A DNA stretch of 64,000 nucleotides from Vibrio navarrensis (GTDB taxonomy: Bacteria > Pseudomonadota > Gammaproteobacteria > Enterobacterales > Vibrionaceae), in contig NZ_CP065218.1 in the NCBI RefSeq assembly GCF_015767675.1, positions 868,001 through 932,000 of the forward strand, read 5' to 3'. Positions within the stretch are counted from its first letter, which is position 1. Each line of letters opens with the position of its first letter. Shown here piece after piece: positions 6,418 through 17,955 of the stretch. The notes below the pieces were generated by a model, which was not told the DNA's origin, ran no database searches, and saw only the letters and a list, made by a program, of their open reading frames with translations. The position numbers and the translations under genes were made by a program.

Positions 6418-7077
6418 ATGCGCTTATTACTGGTTGAAGACGATACACAATTAGGCGAATCCATGCTCGCGGCGCTCAGTCGGCATGGATACACGGTGGA
6501 CTGGCTTGAGCGCGGTAGTGGTGTCACTACCGCGCTGAAAACCGAGCAGTTCACCGCCGTGATCCTCGATCTCACTTTGCCAGACATTGATGGCCTAGAA
6601 GTGCTGCGACAAATTCGCCGCGCCGGTTACACTTTGCCCGTGATGATCCTGACCGCACGCGATGACATCAGCGATCGAGTCAAAGGGCTTGATGGCGGCG
6701 CGGATGAGTACATCGGTAAACCATTCGCATTAGAAGAGTTGTTGGCGCGCCTTCGCCTCATCATTCGCCGCAGCAGTGGCAGTGCGGAAGAGCAGATTCA
6801 GGTCGGCGAACTGACGTTATCTCTCTCAAAACAAGAGATTTGTTGTCAGCAAACGCCACTGAAACTGACACGCAATGAGTATAAGATTTTGGCCACCATG
6901 ATGACCCAGACCGGGCGAGTATTGAGCAAAGAGCAGTTGCAGCAGGCGCTACACGGCTGGGACGAAGGCAGCAGCGACAATGCCATCGAAGTGCACATTC
7001 ACAATTTACGCAAAAAGCTACCGGATAACGTAATCAAGAATGTCCGCGGTGTGGGGTATCTAATTGAAAAGGCATAA
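6418..7077 (+). CDS. OmpR/PhoB-family response regulator
   Basis: 219 residues: receiver domain (1-115) with acidic pocket EDD at residues 7-9, phospho-acceptor Asp51 in ILDLTLPD, Thr in LTARDD and Lys101 in GKPF; then a winged-helix DNA-binding domain (about 125-217) with the LTRNEYKIL and NAIEVHIHNLRKKL segments typical of the OmpR class. It overlaps the kinase gene by 14 bases and follows the TPR gene by 3 bases. The arrangement implies that this pair controls the operon it sits in, though no operator could be picked out. Closest in style to QseB/PmrA-type regulators. Confidence 0.92.
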   Translation: MRLLLVEDDTQLGESMLAALSRHGYTVDWLERGSGVTTALKTEQFTAVILDLTLPDIDGLEVLRQIRRAGYTLPVMILTARDDISDRVKGLDGGADEYIGKPFALEELLARLRLIIRRSSGSAEEQIQVGELTLSLSKQEICCQQTPLKLTRNEYKILATMMTQTGRVLSKEQLQQALHGWDEGSSDNAIEVHIHNLRKKLPDNVIKNVRGVGYLIEKA

Positions 7078-8476
7078 AGTTTTCTCGATTAAACGCCGTT
7101 TAACCCTATCGGTGGTCCTGCTAAGTTGCGCACTTATCCTTTTGTCTCTCTACTTCAGTTTTTCTGCCGCACAAGATGAGGTTGAAGAAGTGTATGACGC
7201 GCGTTTGGGTCAAGCAGCGAAACAGCTTTTGATGGCAACTGCGCTGTCGGCGGAACATCTAGCACGAAAAGAGCAGCGTGAACATTTTGATGAGTGGATG
7301 GAGAATATTCAGCGCCTTTCTCACGCTCGGGATGATATCGCCACCGCTTTTGGTCACCCCTATGAACAGAATATTCTCTTCCAATTCTATCGTGACGATG
7401 AGCTAATATTCAGTTCTGACTCGCAACAAGCTGCGCTGAGCCTTGGTCGTGATCATCAAGGCTTTGGTGATGTACAGACTGAAGGACATTTCTGGCGCAT
7501 TTTTCAGCTCGCTCAACCGCACAGTCAGCGTGGCTATGAATACGTCTTAGTGGCGGAAAAGCAGCACATACGTGATGAAGCGATCAATGAAATTGCGCTC
7601 TCTACGGCGCTGCCACAGTTGGTGCTCATCCCTTGTTTAGTACTGCTGATGATTGTTCTCATCGATCGCAATTTCCGTCCGATTCACGAGCTAAAATCGG
7701 CCATCGCGGTGCGCAGCGTGCATAAACTCGATCGCATCTATGTGCGTGAACAAACCGCCGAATTGACCCCTTTGGTGGATACCTTAAATGAACTGCTCGA
7801 ACAACTTGAGCAAGCGTGGCAGCGGGAAAAACGTTTTACGCGTATGGCGGCGCATGAACTTAAAACGCCGCTGACGGTGCTGCGTTTAAATGCGGAGAAC
7901 GCCCTGCACAGCCAAAACCCAGAAGAGTTAAAACATGACTTGGGCATGATCCTCAAAGGGATTGACCGTACCGACCGTTTGATTCACCAACTGCTTACTT
8001 TAGCTAAAGTCGAAAGCCTAGCCGAGCTCACAACTCAGCAAGTTGAGCTGTCGGCTTTGATTCGGCAAGTTATCGCCAATCTCGCGCCATTGGCCATCAA
8101 GCAGCAGCAACAGTTGAGCTTTGAGGGGGAAAAATATTGGCTGCAAGGGGACGAGATTCTGCTGGGGGTGCTGTTTAAGAACTTGATCGACAATGCGATT
8201 CGCTATTCTGGCACGGGGAGTGAGATTGAAGTGCAACTCACGGTGGATGCCCATGGCGCGCAAGTGACGGTGGCAGACAGTGGGCAAGCGATCAAAGAAG
8301 AGGTGCGCGAGAAAATGTTCGACAACTTTTATCGCGCCAACACGGAAAAAGGCGATGGCGCTGGCTTAGGAATGTCGATTTGTCGTGATATTGCCCAGCG
8401 TCACGAGGCTAGCGTAGAGCTTTTAGCTAGAGAAGGTGAGCGTAATGTTTTTTGTGTGCGTTTTTCATCCTCATGA
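7064..8476 (+). CDS. Membrane sensor histidine kinase
   Basis: 470 residues. Transmembrane helix 1 is about residues 12-34 and helix 2 about 175-197, enclosing a periplasmic sensor of about 140 residues. A short linker without a clear HAMP leads to the H-box AAHELKTPLTVLRL, with the phosphorylated His at residue 264, then N-box NLIDNAIRYSG, G1 box DSGQAIKEE and G2 box GAGLGMSIC. The G1 box has Ala where the second conserved Gly is usual, although the rest of the ATP site looks complete. It pairs with the overlapping OmpR-type gene upstream. The sensor domain does not match a family I know, so the signal is unknown. Confidence 0.9.
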   Translation: MKRHKVFSIKRRLTLSVVLLSCALILLSLYFSFSAAQDEVEEVYDARLGQAAKQLLMATALSAEHLARKEQREHFDEWMENIQRLSHARDDIATAFGHPYEQNILFQFYRDDELIFSSDSQQAALSLGRDHQGFGDVQTEGHFWRIFQLAQPHSQRGYEYVLVAEKQHIRDEAINEIALSTALPQLVLIPCLVLLMIVLIDRNFRPIHELKSAIAVRSVHKLDRIYVREQTAELTPLVDTLNELLEQLEQAWQREKRFTRMAAHELKTPLTVLRLNAENALHSQNPEELKHDLGMILKGIDRTDRLIHQLLTLAKVESLAELTTQQVELSALIRQVIANLAPLAIKQQQQLSFEGEKYWLQGDEILLGVLFKNLIDNAIRYSGTGSEIEVQLTVDAHGAQVTVADSGQAIKEEVREKMFDNFYRANTEKGDGAGLGMSICRDIAQRHEASVELLAREGERNVFCVRFSSS

Positions 8477-8640
8477 TGACGAATGCAGAGACAGCGCCGC
8501 AGTGAAATGCTGTTGAAGGGGCTGGGATAGAGGTTGATTTCCAAATGATTGCTTTGGCTGAAGATTGCTATCAAAGCTTGAGATTAAGCGAAGCGGCATA
8601 AAGAGGCTTTTACTTAGAATATTTATTGGAAGCTGTTCGA

Positions 8641-10381: not shown

Positions 10382-10520
10382 GAGGGAGTCCGCGCAAGTC
10401 AAAAAAATCGAGCGAGGATTGTACCTATTTTACGCAGGATTGCACGGCGCAAAGGTTCGCTGTTGTCACTCGTTGCAATGAATTAGGCAATTTTTTGGCG
10501 CAATCAAAAATCCATGAATA

Positions 10521-10599
10521 TACTTTATGTGCATTAATGCATATCTGAGCAATAAGCCCATGCGGTATCGGGCAGCACATAACAAAAGTACATAAAGTA
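10521..10599. promoter_or_regulatory. Inverted repeat and palindrome upstream of the MNIO operon
   Basis: TACTTTATGTGC (10521-10532) is matched, 11 of 12 bases, by the inverted copy GTACATAAAGTA (10588-10599), which lies directly before the ribosome-binding site AGGAAG of the ferritin-like gene. A separate perfect 12-base palindrome TGCATTAATGCA sits at 10530-10541. The placement suggests a regulator binding two sites around the promoter; the regulator is unknown. Confidence 0.45.
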
Positions 10600-10611: not shown

Positions 10612-12687
10612 ATGGATTTTCAGCGTTTGGCCGGGTTGCAGTTAGAACGAAATCCGCGCTTATCGAACCGAGACATCAGCCATTTAGCAGCCGATGTGAA
10701 CGCCGTGCGTTGTCTGACTCAGGCCGCGATCAACGTCGAGCTGTTTACTATTCCGTTGTACATGACCACCATGTACTCGATATATGGCATGCACTCGATC
10801 ACAGGGAAAGACAATGCGCTCTATCTTGGTCGTCGTTGGCCGGGCATCACGCCGACTCCGAACCCGCAAACTGCCAATCAACAAGCGTGTAACTTGATTT
10901 TCAGTGTCTTTATCCAAGAGATGCTGCATCTGCAAATGGCGGCCAATATTCACAACGCGCTCAGTGCGACCGTGGCAGGTAGCCAAGCGGCCGCGGCCGA
11001 TTTCAACTCGCCACTGCTGGTGAATGAGAACAATGGCTGGATCTGCTACGGCCCGGACAAAACCACCATTCCGCATATTTTGGATCTCACCGACTTGTCA
11101 GAAGCACCCTATAACGCGGTGAAAGTTGCGCTGGGTGGCTTGGATGAAAACAGCATCAACCTATTTTTGTTGATTGAGGAGCCGTCGGATGTGCTCGCCA
11201 GCCGCATCAAAGCGACTGCGCACGATAAGTACATTGCAACTAATGGCAAAGGCGTCGAGAGCTGTGTGCCGTTTAAAGATTGGAGCGCGCAATCTACCGA
11301 AGCCGAGCTGCCGCAATTTGGCACCATTGCGACCATGTATGAATGTTTGGCCGCGTATTTGAATGTCACTTACAGTGACGGTAGCAGCCTGTTTAACAAT
11401 ATGTTTAATCCGGATTCGATTCAGCGCGACTTGTTCAATACCGAAGAGAGCGGCCACCCGCTGGCAGAGTTCCCACGCATGAAAACGGTGGTGGACGCTA
11501 AAGAGGCCAATCAAGCGAAAAGCCAGATTTTCCAGTTGATGAACGCGATTACCGATCAAGGCGAAGGCGCAACCATGAAAGTGGAAGCGCAAACCGTCTT
11601 GCCAGCCGGTTTGGTGGGGGCGCCAGTTGACCCAAGCTACCAGCCAAACTTCCAAGCACTTCAAGCCGATTACAAGCAGTATGACGAACAGGGCAACGAA
11701 CTGCCGATGTCTGGCGCAGCGCACGCCCGCTTCTTTGGTGGCGTGGTGGATCACTACGACCGTTTCCAGCAAGTGAAGGGGTTGTTGGAATCCGGCGAAA
11801 TCACCACCTGGGCCGATTGGCATGCCAACCCAGCCAATAAATGGCAGCCAGACGATCTGCAAACCGCAGAGTACCAACACAACCAATATGCGGGTGTGTT
11901 GCCTTCTGCTCAGGCGGTCTCCACGGCGCTCAATAACCTCAAAGCGGGTGGCGACGCCAGCTGGCAAGAGATGAGTCATGTGGCTGCTGGTGCGATTGCA
12001 GGCATTACCACTGTGCTCAATAAATACTGGACAGACAAAGGTGTCGACTTCCCGTTCCCGTCAATGTCAGGTTCTGGCGATCGTGTCTCCATCTGCTGGG
12101 CGGTGTTTGGCCAAGCACCGGATCTGTCGCTAGGAGAGTACCAGCGCATTCCTGAATCGCAGCGTGATTATCTCTATCACGCTTGCCAAGGGATGGCGCT
12201 GGAGCCAAACCCAAATGAAACGGGCAATAGCTGCGCGTCGAAAGAGATTTTCCACACCTGTCGCGGCTCGAACAGCTGTAAAGCGGAAGGGGGCTGTGGT
12301 TTTGTGCAAAAAACCTCTGGTGGCGGCTCGGGTTGTCGCAGTTTGAGTGCCACACCGAGCAATAAGAATGCGGTGCAAGCGGGTTGCGGCGCGCCGGAGC
12401 TCTACTCTCCGCCCGCCGATAACGCTTGTGGTGGCTTGGGCGGCTGTGCGGTGCCCATCTCCGCCTCACAGCTCTATCCCGATGGCGGCCTGATGCCCAT
12501 TTACCAATTGCGCGCTGGACAGCATCCAGAACAGGTTTCCGGTGAGGGGGTGCAGTTTGCCACCGGTGATGCGGTGTATGACATTGCTTGGCAGGCGTAC
12601 AGCAAAGCGCTGGCTGCTGAAGGAAAAACGGCGGGGGACAAGCCACAACCTTCTGACCTGCGTTTGGCCTTCCCACCATCAACGTAA
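10612..12687 (+). CDS. Ferritin-like (VioB-type) protein with cysteine-rich C-terminal region
   Basis: 691 residues, no signal peptide. The N-terminal half resembles the ferritin-like domain of iminophenyl-pyruvate dimer synthases (VioB/RebD type): a helix with the NVELFTIPLY Glu (about residue 43), a second helix with the FIQEMLHLQMA ExxH pair (about 103-113) and a later HYDRFQQV helix. Around residues 525-612 there are nine Cys in 88 residues (525, 541, 550, 556, 562, 575, 592, 606, 612) between Gly/Ser-rich spacers, including EGGCG at 559-563. Such motifs (EGKCG type) are modified by MNIO enzymes in known systems, and an MNIO gene follows. I infer that this region is the substrate of that enzyme or a metal-binding segment. 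Ribosome-binding site AGGAAG. Confidence 0.75.
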   Translation: MDFQRLAGLQLERNPRLSNRDISHLAADVNAVRCLTQAAINVELFTIPLYMTTMYSIYGMHSITGKDNALYLGRRWPGITPTPNPQTANQQACNLIFSVFIQEMLHLQMAANIHNALSATVAGSQAAAADFNSPLLVNENNGWICYGPDKTTIPHILDLTDLSEAPYNAVKVALGGLDENSINLFLLIEEPSDVLASRIKATAHDKYIATNGKGVESCVPFKDWSAQSTEAELPQFGTIATMYECLAAYLNVTYSDGSSLFNNMFNPDSIQRDLFNTEESGHPLAEFPRMKTVVDAKEANQAKSQIFQLMNAITDQGEGATMKVEAQTVLPAGLVGAPVDPSYQPNFQALQADYKQYDEQGNELPMSGAAHARFFGGVVDHYDRFQQVKGLLESGEITTWADWHANPANKWQPDDLQTAEYQHNQYAGVLPSAQAVSTALNNLKAGGDASWQEMSHVAAGAIAGITTVLNKYWTDKGVDFPFPSMSGSGDRVSICWAVFGQAPDLSLGEYQRIPESQRDYLYHACQGMALEPNPNETGNSCASKEIFHTCRGSNSCKAEGGCGFVQKTSGGGSGCRSLSATPSNKNAVQAGCGAPELYSPPADNACGGLGGCAVPISASQLYPDGGLMPIYQLRAGQHPEQVSGEGVQFATGDAVYDIAWQAYSKALAAEGKTAGDKPQPSDLRLAFPPST

Positions 12688-12784
12688 GAAAAATAACAGC
12701 TTGCCTATTTGCAATGCACTTCGCTCTGTCTGCCCTTTGGCAGACAGAGTTGTTATGACTACACATTCAGTTGAAAGGATGCCA

Positions 12785-13810
12785 ATGCGTTCCAAGTCAG
12801 ATCTGCCTAATTTCCCAGCATCGACACCGCCCCATTCTCATGCAGAGGACTCTCATGCACAGGACTCTCATGCCGAGCTTAGCGCTTCCATGGGGTTTGG
12901 TGTCGGGCTTCGCTCTTGCCATTTTGCTTGGCTTGAGCAACACCTACTACCAGAGCAAAGCGGCGTTGATTGGTTTGAAGCGATCAGCGAAAACTACCTC
13001 GACCACCATGGCTATGCGCGCCACTTACTCGTTAAGCTGCGTGAACACTATCCGATTGCCTTGCATGGCGTTTCGATGTCGATCGGCTCAAGCGATCCGT
13101 TGGATAAAGAGTACCTTGGCAAACTGCGGCTTTTGTGCCAAGAACTGGAGCCGAAGCTGGTCTCCGACCACCTTTGTTGGACAGGGATTCAAGGGATTAA
13201 CAGTCACGATCTGTTGCCGATGCCACTTACCGAAGAGAGCCTGACGCATGTTTGCGCGCGGGTGCAGCAGGTACAAGAGTTTCTGCAACGGCCGCTGGTG
13301 ATAGAAAACCCCAGCACCTATTTTGCTTTTCAGGAGAATCAATTCCATGAGTGGGATTTCCTTGCCCAGTTAGTTCAGCGCAGTGGCTGCCGCTTGCTGT
13401 TGGACGTCAACAACGTCTACGTGAGCGCGAAAAACCTCGGCTTCTCCGCTCATGACTACTTGGCGGGTATTCCGCTCGATGCGGTGGTGCAGTGTCATTT
13501 AGCCGGTCCGACCGATTGCGGAACCCATTTGATCGACACGCACGACAAGCCAGTGCCAACCGCTGTGTGGCAGCTCTATCAACAAATGATCGAACAGGCT
13601 GGTAGGCCGATTTCCACATTGCTCGAGTGGGATGCCAATATTCCGGATTTTCCCGAACTGGTCGGCGAACTGAACCTTGCCAAAGCGGTATTGCAAGGGC
13701 AAATTCCACAACGCGAGCCGTTAAGACAGAGCGAGAATGCACCACTCTCGACGCCGATTGCCGATGCGCTTGGCCGCAAGCAGTTCGTCTCTGCGCAGGA
13801 GGTCGAATGA
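12785..13810 (+). CDS. DUF692 multinuclear non-heme iron oxidase (MNIO, BufB/HvfB-like)
   Basis: 341 residues from the ATG at 12785 (AAAGGA five bases upstream); ATGs at 12755 and 12779 are alternatives, and the open frame extends back into the previous gene without a start signal. The TIM-barrel MNIO motifs are all seen in order: GVGLRSCHF, FEAISENYLD, LHGVSMSIGS, VSDHLCW, LLPMPLTEE, VIENPSTYF, LLLDVNNVYVSAKN, CHLAGP, LIDTHDKPV and LLEWDANIP, so the His/Asp/Glu ligands of the iron cluster appear intact. MNIOs oxidise Cys, Asp or Asn residues of ribosomally made peptides. The ~35-residue N-terminal extension contains three SHAED-like repeats. It overlaps the next gene by 4 bases (ATGA). Confidence 0.88.
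   Translation: MRSKSDLPNFPASTPPHSHAEDSHAQDSHAELSASMGFGVGLRSCHFAWLEQHLLPEQSGVDWFEAISENYLDHHGYARHLLVKLREHYPIALHGVSMSIGSSDPLDKEYLGKLRLLCQELEPKLVSDHLCWTGIQGINSHDLLPMPLTEESLTHVCARVQQVQEFLQRPLVIENPSTYFAFQENQFHEWDFLAQLVQRSGCRLLLDVNNVYVSAKNLGFSAHDYLAGIPLDAVVQCHLAGPTDCGTHLIDTHDKPVPTAVWQLYQQMIEQAGRPISTLLEWDANIPDFPELVGELNLAKAVLQGQIPQREPLRQSENAPLSTPIADALGRKQFVSAQEVE
12836..12877 (+). repeat. 15-base tandem repeat inside the MNIO gene
   Basis: Three copies of TCTCATGCAGAGGAC-like units (12836, 12851, and a partial one at 12866) encode SHAED, SHAQD and SHAEL in the N-terminal extension of the MNIO protein. The unit length keeps the frame, so copy number could vary without breaking the gene. The His/Asp/Glu content could bind metal, which is inference. 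Confidence 0.7.
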
Positions 13811-14667
13811 GCTCATCTAATGAGTTAGCCGCGCGTCAGCAGTGGTTGCTTGAGTCGATTCTACAAGGCCCCAAAGCCAGCCAAATGGCCAGCGAGTTTA
13901 TTGTCGGCTCGGCGCAAATGTCAGCGGCAGCACGTCTGGCCATATATCAGGACGGCTATCGGCTGCGTCTGCTTGAATGCATGGCGGCGGAGTTTCCGGC
14001 ATTGCAGCACTACCTCGGCGAACCGCTGTTTCGTTTATTCAGCTTAGGTTATCTGCAACAGCAGCCTTCCCGTCACTACAGTTTGTATCAATTGGGTGAG
14101 GGATTTGCCGAGTTTCTCGCCGCAACGCGCCCGAGTGAACAGAACGTGCAGCCACAATGGGCAGCAGGGCTTAAGATTCCAGAGCAACTCGCGAGATTCG
14201 AGAGGGCGCGGGCAAATGCGCTCCGCGCTGCGGGGGCGCAGCCGCAGAGCACGCCGGAGTTAGGTTGTCTGTTTCACTTTCCAGCGCTGGCCTTGCCTCA
14301 AAGCAGTACATTAGTCGAGCACGATTTTGCGCTGCATGACTATGTACTCGCCGCTGATCGCCACGCACTGGCGCTTGAACAAGGTCAGAGTGCTGAAAAG
14401 CCCGCCATGCCTGCAGCACAGCCCGAGTCTCTGCTGGTCTATCGCCATCAATTTCGCGTCAAAGTGGTCAAACTTGAAGCTTGGCAGGCCGATGTGCTGC
14501 GCGTACTAAGTGCCACGACGCACAGAGCACAAAAGGGCAAAGCCATGCAAGCGGATTGGCAAACCTTGCTTGAGCACAACCGACTCGCTGAAAGCGAACT
14601 GCTGATGAAACTCAACCTGTGGCTGCCACAGGCTTTAAAAGAAAATCAGCTTACGCTTGCCGAATAA
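13807..14667 (+). CDS. DUF2063/HvfC-type partner of the MNIO enzyme
   Basis: 286 residues from the ATG at 13807, which overlaps the MNIO stop codon (ATGA) and has a strong AGGAGGT site. The N-terminal ~95 residues match the DUF2063 (HvfC/BufC N-terminal) domain: LAARQQWLLESILQG, the ARLAIYQDGYRLRLLECMAAEFPAL-type helix pair and the GEPLFRLFSLGYLQQQPSRHYSL segment. In known MNIO systems this protein binds the enzyme and recruits the peptide substrate. The rest has a middle beta-rich part and a C-terminal winged-helix-like part (LLEHNRLAESELLMKLNLWLPQAL). No membrane helix. The tight coupling implies a 1:1 complex with the MNIO. Confidence 0.85.
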   Translation: MSSSNELAARQQWLLESILQGPKASQMASEFIVGSAQMSAAARLAIYQDGYRLRLLECMAAEFPALQHYLGEPLFRLFSLGYLQQQPSRHYSLYQLGEGFAEFLAATRPSEQNVQPQWAAGLKIPEQLARFERARANALRAAGAQPQSTPELGCLFHFPALALPQSSTLVEHDFALHDYVLAADRHALALEQGQSAEKPAMPAAQPESLLVYRHQFRVKVVKLEAWQADVLRVLSATTHRAQKGKAMQADWQTLLEHNRLAESELLMKLNLWLPQALKENQLTLAE

Positions 14668-15768: not shown

Positions 15769-17955
15769 ATGCTTATCTCCCATTTTCGTCTGGGTGCGCT
15801 GGCGCTCATCTTGGCCAGTTCTTCTTTTGCCAGTTCCGCCGACTCGTTCAAACGTATCGCCAGTTTTCCGGTGGCCGACAATGTGCCCCATGGTATGGAC
15901 AGCAAAAAGCCGACTTCGGCAGAGATCATCACCGCCACAGAAGATGGCAACATACTGATTTATTCCGACAGTCCACTCGGCGGGATCGGTTTTATCGACA
16001 TCAAGCAGCCCCATATGCCGCAAGCCGCCGGGTTTCTCTCGCTGAATGGCGAACCCACCTCGGTAGCCGCGTATGATAAATGGGTGTTGGCGGCGGTGAA
16101 CACATCGAAAAACTATACCCAGCCTTCGGGATATCTGGCGATTGTGTCGGCGACTGGGCGCAAAGTCGTCGATAAATGCGAACTGGGCGGCCAACCAGAC
16201 TCGGTCGCCGTCTCTAAAGATGGTCGCTACATCGCGGTGGCGATAGAAAACGAGCGCGATGAGAGCCTTAATGACGGCGAACTGCCGCAGTTGCCAGCGG
16301 GTTTTCTGGTGATCATTGCAGCGCAAAAAGGCAAAGCCGACTGTTCCACGGCCAGACGTGTGACGTTGACTGGATTGGCGCAGATCGCCCCCGACGATCC
16401 TGAGCCGGAGTTCGTCGCATTCAATACCGCCAATCAAATTGCGCTGACTTTACAGGAAAACAACCACATTGTGATTGTTGATGCCGCCAGTGCGAAAGTG
16501 GTCAATCACTTCTCGGCAGGTCGTGTGGACTTGCAGCAGATTGATGTGAAAAAAGATGGCGCGCTGCTGTTTACTGGCGAGCAGAAAGGCGTTTTGCGCG
16601 AACCGGATGCGGTGAAATGGCTCGATAATGAACGTCTGGTGATCGCCAATGAAGGTGACTATCACGGCGGCGCACGGGGTTTTACCATTTTCAGTAAGCA
16701 GGGATCGGTGCTGTTTGAAAGCGGCGCGTCATTTGAGCATCAGATCGTGCGCGCCGGGCACTATCCAGAAAAACGCTCGGGCAAAAAAGGAGCAGAACCG
16801 GAAGGGCTGGAAGTCGCGACTTTCAACGGTCAGCAGTACATTTTTGTTTTGTCGGAGCGAGGCTCGGCGGTCGGCGTGTATCAAGACCATCGGGCGAATC
16901 CGCGCTGGATGCAACTGCTGCCTTCGGGCATTGCGCCAGAATCGGCGGTTGCCATCCCCCAGCGTAATTTGCTGGCAACAGCCAACGAAGCCGATCTCAT
17001 TGCTGAAGGCGGTGCACGTTCTCATGTGATGATTTATCAGCTGAGTTCAGGTGAGCCGACCTATCCGCAAATCGTCTCGGAGAATGACGAACACGGCGCG
17101 CCGATTGGTTGGGGGGCGCTTTCTGGCCTTGCTAGCGACGGTAAAACGCTCGGCAAATTGTATGCAGTGAATGACAGCTTTTATTCTTCACAGCCGACGA
17201 TTTTCACTATCGACGCAAGCAAAACGCCTGCGGTAATTAAGAGCGCTCTTACGGTCACCCGCGACGGAAAAGCAGCGAAAAAGCTGGATCTGGAAGGTAT
17301 TACGACCGATGGCAAAGGCGGCTTTTGGCTTGCCTCGGAAGGCAACGCCGCCAAAGAGGTGCCGCACGCGCTTTATCATGTCAACGCCAAAGGCGAAATC
17401 CAACAAACGGTTGAATTTCCAAAAGAGTTGTTGCAATACGAAACTCGTTTTGGTGCAGAAGGGGTGACGTTAGTCGATGATACTTTGTGGGTTGCGGTGC
17501 AAAGACCGTGGAAAGATGACCCAAGTGATCTGGTCAAATTGCTCGCGTACCACATTCCGTCGGATACGTGGCGCGCGGTGCACTACCCGCTTGAACAGAC
17601 AGAAAAAGGTTGGGTCGGTTTGTCGGAGATCACCGCATTCCAAGACAATCTCTACCTGTTGGAGCGCGACAATCAACTGGGCAAATCAGCCAAAATCAAA
17701 CGCTTGTACAAAGTCTCGCTTAAGCAAATTTCGCCTGTCGCGCTTGGGCAAACCTTGCCTGTGGTGCAAAAAGAGCTGGCGTATGATTTCTTGCCAGAAC
17801 TTAAGGCAGGCAATGGGTATGTGGTCGATAAAATTGAAGGTTTCACCATCGACCCGCAAGGCCGTGGCTACGCGGTGACCGATAACGACGGCGTCGATGA
17901 CAGCAGCGGCGAAACCTTGTTCTTCAAACTCAAACTGGATTTTCTTGATCGTTAA
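15769..17955 (+). CDS. Exported phytase-like esterase / beta-propeller protein
   Basis: 728 residues with a signal peptide (about 1-23, SSFASSA). Residues ~30-330 form repeated propeller-like strands with the motifs PDSVAVSKDGRYIAVAIEN and EPEGLEVATFNGQQYIFVLSERGS. The C-terminal ~330 residues match the 'esterase-like activity of phytase' family, with LSGLASDGKTLGKLYAVNDSF, LDLEGITTDGKGGFWLASEGN, FGAEGVTLVDDTLWVAVQ and IEGFTIDPQGRGYAVTDNDG segments supplying conserved acidic residues. It probably cleaves phosphate or carboxylic esters outside the cytoplasm or binds calcium; the substrate is not known. Ribosome-binding site AAGGAAG (15758-15764), five bases before the ATG. A GC-rich hairpin follows the stop. 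Confidence 0.85.
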   Translation: MLISHFRLGALALILASSSFASSADSFKRIASFPVADNVPHGMDSKKPTSAEIITATEDGNILIYSDSPLGGIGFIDIKQPHMPQAAGFLSLNGEPTSVAAYDKWVLAAVNTSKNYTQPSGYLAIVSATGRKVVDKCELGGQPDSVAVSKDGRYIAVAIENERDESLNDGELPQLPAGFLVIIAAQKGKADCSTARRVTLTGLAQIAPDDPEPEFVAFNTANQIALTLQENNHIVIVDAASAKVVNHFSAGRVDLQQIDVKKDGALLFTGEQKGVLREPDAVKWLDNERLVIANEGDYHGGARGFTIFSKQGSVLFESGASFEHQIVRAGHYPEKRSGKKGAEPEGLEVATFNGQQYIFVLSERGSAVGVYQDHRANPRWMQLLPSGIAPESAVAIPQRNLLATANEADLIAEGGARSHVMIYQLSSGEPTYPQIVSENDEHGAPIGWGALSGLASDGKTLGKLYAVNDSFYSSQPTIFTIDASKTPAVIKSALTVTRDGKAAKKLDLEGITTDGKGGFWLASEGNAAKEVPHALYHVNAKGEIQQTVEFPKELLQYETRFGAEGVTLVDDTLWVAVQRPWKDDPSDLVKLLAYHIPSDTWRAVHYPLEQTEKGWVGLSEITAFQDNLYLLERDNQLGKSAKIKRLYKVSLKQISPVALGQTLPVVQKELAYDFLPELKAGNGYVVDKIEGFTIDPQGRGYAVTDNDGVDDSSGETLFFKLKLDFLDR

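Follow-up and report, generated by a model that had tools for sequence, protein, structure and literature searches.

A ferritin-like protein with a Cys-rich, substrate-like tail encoded together with an MNIO and its partner in Vibrio navarrensis

What would an MNIO modify when the gene in front of it encodes a large protein and no small precursor? This question is raised by three genes in a stretch of 64,000 nucleotides from Vibrio navarrensis (contig NZ_CP065218.1 of assembly GCF_015767675.1, positions 868,001 to 932,000 of the forward strand), which is called the window below. MNIOs are known mostly for making small metal-binding or otherwise modified peptides. Here the MNIO gene, of BufB type, follows the gene of a 691-residue ferritin-like protein (FLP) with a Cys-rich C-terminal tail, and is followed by the gene of a DUF2063-bearing partner (PME). 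The tail has a stand-alone counterpart, co-occurs with MNIO in every sampled case, and is very probably the substrate on which MNIO and PME act. Open reading frames (ORFs) and Pfam place the three genes at 10612-14667, just where the original prediction, made from the letters of the window, had put them:

10612..12687, + strand: FLP gene, ferritin-like protein with a Cys-rich C-terminal substrate-like domain; 691 residues, ATG start
10720..11583, + strand: PF12902 ferritin-like domain (residues 37-324; Pfam)
12172..12486, + strand: Cys-rich tail domain (residues ~521-625; conserved Cys, homology to the stand-alone Cys-rich protein)
12259..12297, + strand: C-x5-C-x5-C core CRGSNSCKAEGGC (C550, C556, C562; alignment)
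12487..12684, + strand: conserved C-terminal segment 3' of the Cys motifs, ending in RLAFPPST (alignment; part of it matched by hhalign)
12785..13810, + strand: MNIO gene (DUF692, PF05114, BufB-type; Pfam, NCBIfam, alignment to solved MNIOs); alternative starts at 12755 and 12779
13807..14667, + strand: PME gene, a PME-type 1 partner with DUF2063 and a probable RRE-like part (Pfam PF09836)

The Cys-rich tail and its stand-alone counterpart

The Cys-rich segment is conserved well beyond what chance would give. Three alignments, of 23, 71 and 52 sequences, keep C525, C550, C556, C562, C606 and C612 without exception. C575 has no exception in the first of them and reaches at least 90% in the other two, while C541 reaches at least 90% in the 23- and 52-sequence alignments and lies below 90% in that of 71. 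The motifs H-x-C-x-G-S-N-x-C-x3-G-G-C-G and N-x-C-x3-G-G-C-A are kept in the 71 and 52 sequences, with GTN replacing GSN in a few distant members (L085, L194). A profile of the FLP tail matches all 80 fetched loci and 120 of the 120 listed homologues (772 were found); it also recovers 20 of the 80 tails, and those of L123 and L191, that a regular expression overlooked. The presence of the tail in 80 of 80 related loci rules out a one-off fusion or a gene-call artefact.

To place the tail among ferritin-like proteins in general, PF12902 matches were collected from 299 Pseudomonadota, 296 Bacteroidota, 385 G307-class and 296 Actinomycetota genomes (matches in 15, 9, 9 and 26 of them) and from eight further genomes reached through known loci. 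Forty-seven PF12902 places were examined with their surroundings; 15 Actinomycetota places below 30 bits were left out, and five of the 47 (L139-L143) come from genomes chosen for holding a fused FLP. MNIO and PME lie nearby in 10 of the 47. Three of these are fused like the window (L125, L191, L194), one (L123) is a different fusion, and six are split (L139, L180, L181, L182, L184, L199). The split loci encode a tail-less FLP, a separate Cys-rich protein of ~175-216 residues, MNIO and PME, and the separate Cys-rich gene precedes MNIO in all six. In L139 and L199 the FLP gene lies 3' of the PME gene rather than first, and the starts of the stand-alone proteins were placed by hand, one codon before ATG.

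The tail profile, built from fused FLPs, matches 10 of the 10 MNIO-bearing loci and none of the 37 without MNIO (Fisher p 1.9e-10), in a table that reads L199 in the wrong frame. Six of the 37 lie on contigs of 3.2-8.6 kb (L117, L124, L188, L193, L201, L202), and four others match Pfam weakly and in part (L126, L127, L128, L186); the flanks covered at the remaining loci are about 7-10 kb on each side. Without those ten loci the contrast is 10/10 versus 0/27 (p about 3e-9).

By profile comparison, the tail and the stand-alone Cys-rich protein are homologous. Their hhalign match (97.9%, E 4.2e-13, 109 columns, in a one-model comparison) takes in the Cys motifs and some of the C-terminal segment. 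Both carry C-x5-C-x5-C with GG before the last Cys, a spacing also found in a BufA2-like small precursor in locus L213, and the tail profile matches the six stand-alone proteins at E 2.9e-7 to 2.4e-3. When 296 Actinomycetota and 296 Bacteroidota genomes were searched with the stand-alone form, full-length matches came from six genomes (G351, G1099; G456, G523, G531, G559), each with a split FLP and MNIO alongside. Everything else matched was either the tail of a fused FLP (two cases) or the 99-residue precursor of L213; with at most 11 candidates scored per genome, weak stand-alone proteins may have escaped. A plasmid search found no stand-alone Cys-rich protein. The separate protein, the split loci and the strict co-occurrence together make the tail very probably the MNIO/PME substrate, so the earlier proposal of a Cys-rich substrate-like segment fused to a 691-residue ferritin-like protein now has a stand-alone counterpart and an exceptionless association with MNIO in the sample behind it.

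The other fusion, L123, joins a split-type FLP and a split-type Cys-rich protein in one frame of 744 residues. It has 628 relatives at E 1e-3, and of the 120 listed, 118 carry the Cys-rich domain. The MNIO tree unites the window-type MNIOs in a single clade (99/92) and places L123 within a split clade (100/96); in an FLP tree made by a quick method, the window-type FLPs again form one clade and the L123-type FLPs group with the split forms. Both trees gave long-branch warnings, and two rows of the FLP tree (P0322, P0330) were labelled split from the absence of a tail alone. Two Actinomycetota split MNIOs are placed next to the fused clade, though weakly supported (89/73), so fusion may have come before splitting or after it. 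Judged from these trees, the FLP and the Cys-rich domain were therefore either brought together at least twice, or brought together early and separated again repeatedly; under either history they evidently belong together.

The L123-type fused FLPs (P0241-P0360) combine another ferritin-like subfamily with the same Cys-rich domain and occur in Sphingomonas, Collimonas, Crocosphaera, Tahibacter, Acidovorax and Myxococcota, with an MNIO neighbour seen at L123 only. In plasmids 70 records match this type, none reaching 80% of the query, and a search of 20 relatives of the L123 genome returned L123 itself, one weak ferritin-like match and nothing more.

The three proteins and the spread of their genes

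The MNIO matches PF05114 (E 2.7e-102) and the NCBIfam model of the bufferin maturase BufB, NF050167, at 349 bits (cut-off 310). It aligns to the solved MNIOs 3bww, 8hci and 7dz9 across HGVS, SDHLCW, IENPST, LLDVNN, HLAG, IDTH and LLEWD, though not every one of these motifs is kept in each structure; we take their His, Asp and Glu residues to hold the iron ligands. PME matches PF09836 (DUF2063, E 4.7e-20) and scores 32 bits against HvfC of NCBIfam, under the cut-off of 142.

The FLP matches PF12902 at E 8e-21 and 75.4 bits (gathering cut-off 22.3), and it shares 97% identity with a protein listed under the name Vibrio navarrensis. Its candidate metal ligands E43, E103, H106, E189 and E318, together with H381 just outside the domain, are kept in 23, 24, 26, 23, 22 and 26 of 26 aligned rows, three of which are badly placed (L142 and L143 cut at the wrong part, L199 in the wrong frame). 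Going by this conservation, the ferritin-like Glu/His site looks intact, and these residues would bind metal; they are common to tail-less PF12902 proteins as well. The only solved relative found by the FLP profile, 3hl1 (E 9.8e-10), is named just "Ferritin like protein". In NCBIfam no family reaches E 0.1, TIGR04222 and TIGR04492 included; against the latter, the VioB equivalog, a split FLP scores 19 bits (cut-off 1250).

The original prediction called for a search for conserved three-gene neighbourhoods. The order FLP-MNIO-PME on one strand was found in 77 of 80 loci, and the other three end at a contig edge (L042 stops after MNIO, L069 and L072 just past FLP). These loci are the best 80 of 165 relatives from a contig scan, which biases them to near relatives. 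Record titles and tree labels assign the unit to five phyla: Pseudomonadota, Bacteroidota, Actinomycetota, Acidobacteriota and Ignavibacteriota. A megaplasmid of Pseudoalteromonas piscicida carries the three genes in the same order. Few relatives of the window's own genome have the unit: it occurs in 2 of 61 genomes, a count that includes the window's own. Phyla are intermixed in the MNIO tree, and the Vibrio copies lie among those of Pokkaliibacter, Marinomonas, Motilimonas and Ferrimonas, which suggests that the unit spread horizontally as a whole. What had been viewed as a single oddity is thus a widespread, conserved unit.

The absence of a small precursor gene, also part of the original prediction, held across 78 loci. 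The gene before MNIO encodes the 691-residue FLP, and no conserved separate small Cys-rich ORF lies near the unit. In 59 of the 78 loci some same-strand ORF of 35-260 residues with at least four Cys occurs within 2.5 kb, but compared over their first 70 residues these ORFs form no conserved family, and the largest groups, of 7 and 6, are all from Janthinobacterium loci. We therefore rejected a separate precursor near the operon.

The V. navarrensis genome has three MNIO genes, and the other two are each accompanied by their own precursor and partner. One belongs to a bufferin operon of the usual Buf1 (DUF2282) kind, which also holds the partner and, by eye, a DoxX-like gene (L001, 1137-3546; G000:C1 near 3451226). 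The other has a CAAGKC precursor (L003, 2292-2606, - strand; G000:C2 near 831578-832354) behind a gene that by eye is metallo-beta-lactamase-like; its MNIO sits on a long branch, and the precursor resembles the "CxxxxC" family of the main text of PMC12452194. In a Bacteroidota genome, at L213 1366-2591, the 99-residue precursor is signal-bearing and BufA2-like, has two C-x5-C-x5-C units and stands directly before MNIO, with a score under the NCBIfam cut-off.

No extra partner gene is conserved across the family, and the unit is self-contained. The widest neighbour cluster covers eight genera (receiver-domain regulators, by eye) and the next seven (ABC-transporter ATPases, by eye), both at scattered positions. 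When Pfam was run over same-strand frames, 46 upstream and 46 downstream, the top family had three and two members respectively; 11 near-duplicate loci had been removed, and three of 49 upstream frames, longer than 2400 residues, were left out. L022, L023 and L034, which belong to Mucilaginibacter and a related Bacteroidota metagenome-assembled genome, have a gene for heavy-metal efflux of the CusA/CzcA type (TIGR00914, 916.8 bits, cut-off 701) directly upstream on the same strand, ending about 200 bases before the FLP gene; a fragment of this pump, 98% identical, is present in L025. In L022 (128-7777) a two-component pair, an outer-membrane factor and a membrane-fusion protein, recognized by eye, precede the efflux gene on the same strand. 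Being near-identical, these loci count as one case, yet the case points toward a metal.

Just upstream of the split FLP of L180 there is, by eye, a thiamine-diphosphate-dependent decarboxylase-like gene (6777-8594), and domains of such enzymes also occur in one downstream frame of the neighbour scan. This neighbour is possibly a hint to the FLP substrate in those lineages. In the window, a protein of phytase-like or choice-of-anchor I type (15769-17955) adjoins the unit and is not a member of it.

Within the unit, the claim of three tightly coupled genes applies to MNIO and PME, whose stop and start overlap in ATGA (13807-13810), but not to FLP and MNIO. The MNIO start is uncertain among the ATG codons at 12755, 12779 and 12785, of which 12785 has the best ribosome-binding site by eye; counted from it, 97 bases separate the two genes, with a strong RNA hairpin inside. 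Two further features were recorded:

12723..12750, + strand: RNA hairpin between the FLP and MNIO genes, 12 pairs, loop of 4 (shuffle z-score)
10495..10524, + strand: promoter-like site upstream of the FLP gene, TTGGCG-18-TATACT (consensus scan, weak)

The hairpin has a z-score of -5.68, with 0 of 200 shuffles equally stable, and at the corresponding place V. neptunius forms one with another sequence (z -4.90). At four other loci it is weaker or absent (z -2.70, -2.21, -1.31 and -0.06). A conserved attenuator was rejected because the hairpin is strong in the two Vibrio operons only; in these two species it could lower MNIO relative to FLP. Promoter-like sites were no more numerous in the scan than in shuffles, and the stretch TATACTTTATGTG is also seen upstream of the V. 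neptunius operon, by eye and weakly.

Possible modification and roles of the tail

Sequence comparison establishes the gene order and the architecture, the homology between the tail and the stand-alone protein, the strict co-occurrence within the sample and the presence of fused forms on two branches; what follows on the modification and its chemistry, on the metal, on a role as cofactor and on the reaction is inference. The FLP, apparently cytosolic, would be translated with its C-terminal Cys-rich domain as its own MNIO substrate, a domain related to the separate Cys-rich protein of the split loci and, at a greater distance, to bufferins of BufA2 type. PME would hold this domain for oxidation by MNIO at one or several of its conserved Cys, with C550, C556, C562, C606 and C612 as candidates. 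The likeliest product would be 5-thiooxazole, -4 Da each, as with PME1-dependent MNIOs elsewhere. Passages of PMC13097082 describe these MNIOs as broadly installing 5-thiooxazole, with four H lost per Cys, absorbance at ~305 nm and copper binding; for oxazolin another group reported an oxazolone thioamide instead (main text of PMC12452194). By this analogy, thiooxazole chemistry on the tail is rather likely. The modified domain would most likely bind copper or another soft metal and would act as a built-in metal/redox site beside the Glu/His centre of the ferritin-like part, in the same chain or, in the split forms, in a partner chain.

To this overall reading, a ferritin-like enzyme that carries its own MNIO substrate with the modified tail as a built-in metal/redox site, we give a probability of about one half. 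The near-invariance across phyla and the absence of a signal peptide by crude hydropathy point to a retained enzyme or metal protein and away from a released peptide, and so favour the built-in site, with tailoring in cis and a cytosolic metal buffer as live rivals. That the enzyme itself uses this cofactor or metal site is put forward only tentatively. In the most far-reaching form, MNIO and PME would build a thiooxazole-type metal-binding cofactor into a ferritin-like oxygenase or oxidase chain, so that chemistry of the kind that makes ribosomally synthesized and post-translationally modified peptides would make the working centre of an enzyme, in five phyla and apparently fused more than once; this we regard as doubtful.

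Several results weigh against the overall reading. C541, C575 and the GGG preceding C575 are lost in some lineages. No BufA2 or other bufferin model matches any of 52 FLP tails, and a direct bufferin match of the tail was therefore rejected; the stand-alone proteins match BufA2 of NCBIfam weakly in four of four scanned (E 9.7e-5 to 1.6e-3, all under the cut-off), so that the link of the tail to bufferins is, on these comparisons, distant and indirect. The FLP seems to have no Sec signal, unlike the precursors of published PME-type 1 systems, which are signal-peptide proteins (main text of PMC12452194): its crude hydropathy is 0.98 versus 1.94-2.30 for three signal-bearing precursors, and values above 1.6 occur in 0 of 120 stand-alone proteins, 16 of 120 listed window-type FLPs and 2 of 120 of the L123 type. 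The metal-efflux neighbour is limited to one near-identical group, and neighbours elsewhere are unrelated to metals. VioB, the nearest named family, is distant, and its equivalog model gives no match for the window FLP.

The FLP could instead be a second tailoring enzyme in a borosin-like fusion, FLP and MNIO both modifying the tail, so that the product is a modified peptide or domain and not an active enzyme. All four parts are kept together in the split loci, as expected of two enzymes and one substrate. The tail motifs, however, are nearly invariant across phyla, in contrast to natural products, which diversify, and no recurrent protease family was seen among the scanned neighbours save serralysin-type C-terminal domains in three of 46 upstream frames. 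Borosin precursors do carry a methyltransferase that modifies its own C-terminal core, as passages of PMC7878506 describe, and we consider this explanation unlikely but worth keeping in mind. A cytosolic metal (copper) buffer, in which the tail sequesters metal and the ferritin-like part is a scaffold or gives ferroxidase-like detoxification with no specific catalysis, would suit the copper binding of related MNIO products (parts of PMC12452194 and PMC13097082) and the position of the unit after the CusA/CzcA-type gene in three Bacteroidota loci. Yet that neighbourhood is a single near-identical group, no metal-efflux family beyond L022 and L025 appears among the families shown (25/26 and 25/28) for the 46 upstream and 46 downstream frames, and PF12902 relatives include a biosynthetic enzyme family, VioB; a simple buffer is accordingly improbable in our judgement.

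Cys-rich tails are frequently structural, and the tail might be an ordinary structural, Fe-S or zinc domain while MNIO and PME act on something else. This is very improbable given that the domain is present in all ten MNIO loci and in none of the other 37, that a stand-alone gene stands before MNIO in six loci, and that no other conserved candidate substrate was found near the unit in the 78 loci examined. MNIO precursor genes can lie apart from MNIO genes (main text of PMC12452194), which would allow a small precursor elsewhere in the genome to be the true substrate; against it, the other two MNIO operons of this genome are already provided with precursor, MNIO and partner, and we give this idea almost no weight.

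Relation to known systems and meaning

The unit resembles the bufferin/captophorin systems (BufABC) in its BufB-type MNIO above the NCBIfam cut-off, the DUF2063 partner downstream, the substrate-like gene directly upstream, and a stand-alone substrate form that matches BufA2 weakly. It differs in that a ferritin-like protein, which apparently lacks a signal peptide, carries the putative substrate as its C-terminal domain, and that DoxX and sigma genes are absent from the unit. With PME1-dependent MNIO systems it shares the BufB-type MNIO and the partner directly downstream (homologous partner in 77 of 80 loci), but it has no small precursor gene before MNIO, no Sec signal and no match to a bufferin or HvfA model.

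Fusion of an MNIO substrate domain to another protein is already in print: the main text of PMC12452194 describes Buf1/cytochrome c/FGE-sulfatase, MerC/Buf and Buf_EGKC/EF-hand proteins. The Buf1/Buf2 cases are few instances and the MerC and EF-hand forms are membrane-linked, whereas the FLP fusion seems to be cytosolic, is kept across phyla and joins the substrate domain to an oxidase-like protein. The claim of a new architecture thus fails for the fused-substrate principle and stands for the fusion to a ferritin-like enzyme, which is apparently new. TIGR04222 proteins (same source) are also large, with a C-terminal Cys-rich segment, and also encoded before MNIO, but they are membrane proteins with PME-type 2 partners, and the FLP has no NCBIfam match. 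The adjamnio-I proteins, with 122-293 residues, 8-21 Cys and no signal peptide (PMC12452194, Table 2), agree with the stand-alone Cys-rich protein of the split loci in size, Cys number and place before MNIO, and may be the same protein; in this comparison by description they differ in being PME-type 2, and the main text gives them no ferritin-like link.

VioB and the iminophenyl-pyruvate dimer synthases share the PF12902 domain with the FLP, but two examples of VioB size (L142, L143) have no Cys-rich tail and no MNIO within the stretch examined. Borosins likewise carry a substrate peptide at the C-terminus of an enzyme, while the likely modifying enzyme of the FLP unit, MNIO, is encoded separately. 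Our literature search found no report of a ferritin-like/MNIO unit; the word "ferritin" is absent from the main text of the MNIO landscape paper PMC12452194, whose supplementary tables, outside the scope of the search, may list one. In passages of a Caulobacter copper-stress paper (PMC8224329), considered as a possible precedent and set aside, the mention of ferritin is a reference, and the DUF692 genes 03000 and 03364 are other loci, the latter beside a DUF2282 gene. Because the main text of PMC12452194 contains other bufferin fusions and the proposal that MNIOs may modify proteins, we rate the FLP unit as a variant of known MNIO systems.

The compact unit occurs from Vibrio to Mucilaginibacter, Saccharothrix, Acidobacteria and Ignavibacteria, and in the sampled genomes the likely substrate is part of a ferritin-like protein or always beside one. 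If the tail is modified, the unit would be an exception to the correlation between PME-type 1 partners and exported precursors published in the main text of PMC12452194. MNIO chemistry would then serve enzyme maturation, with the thiooxazole as a potential cofactor derived from the protein itself. Split and fused forms, both of which occur in nature, are ready test pairs for this idea.

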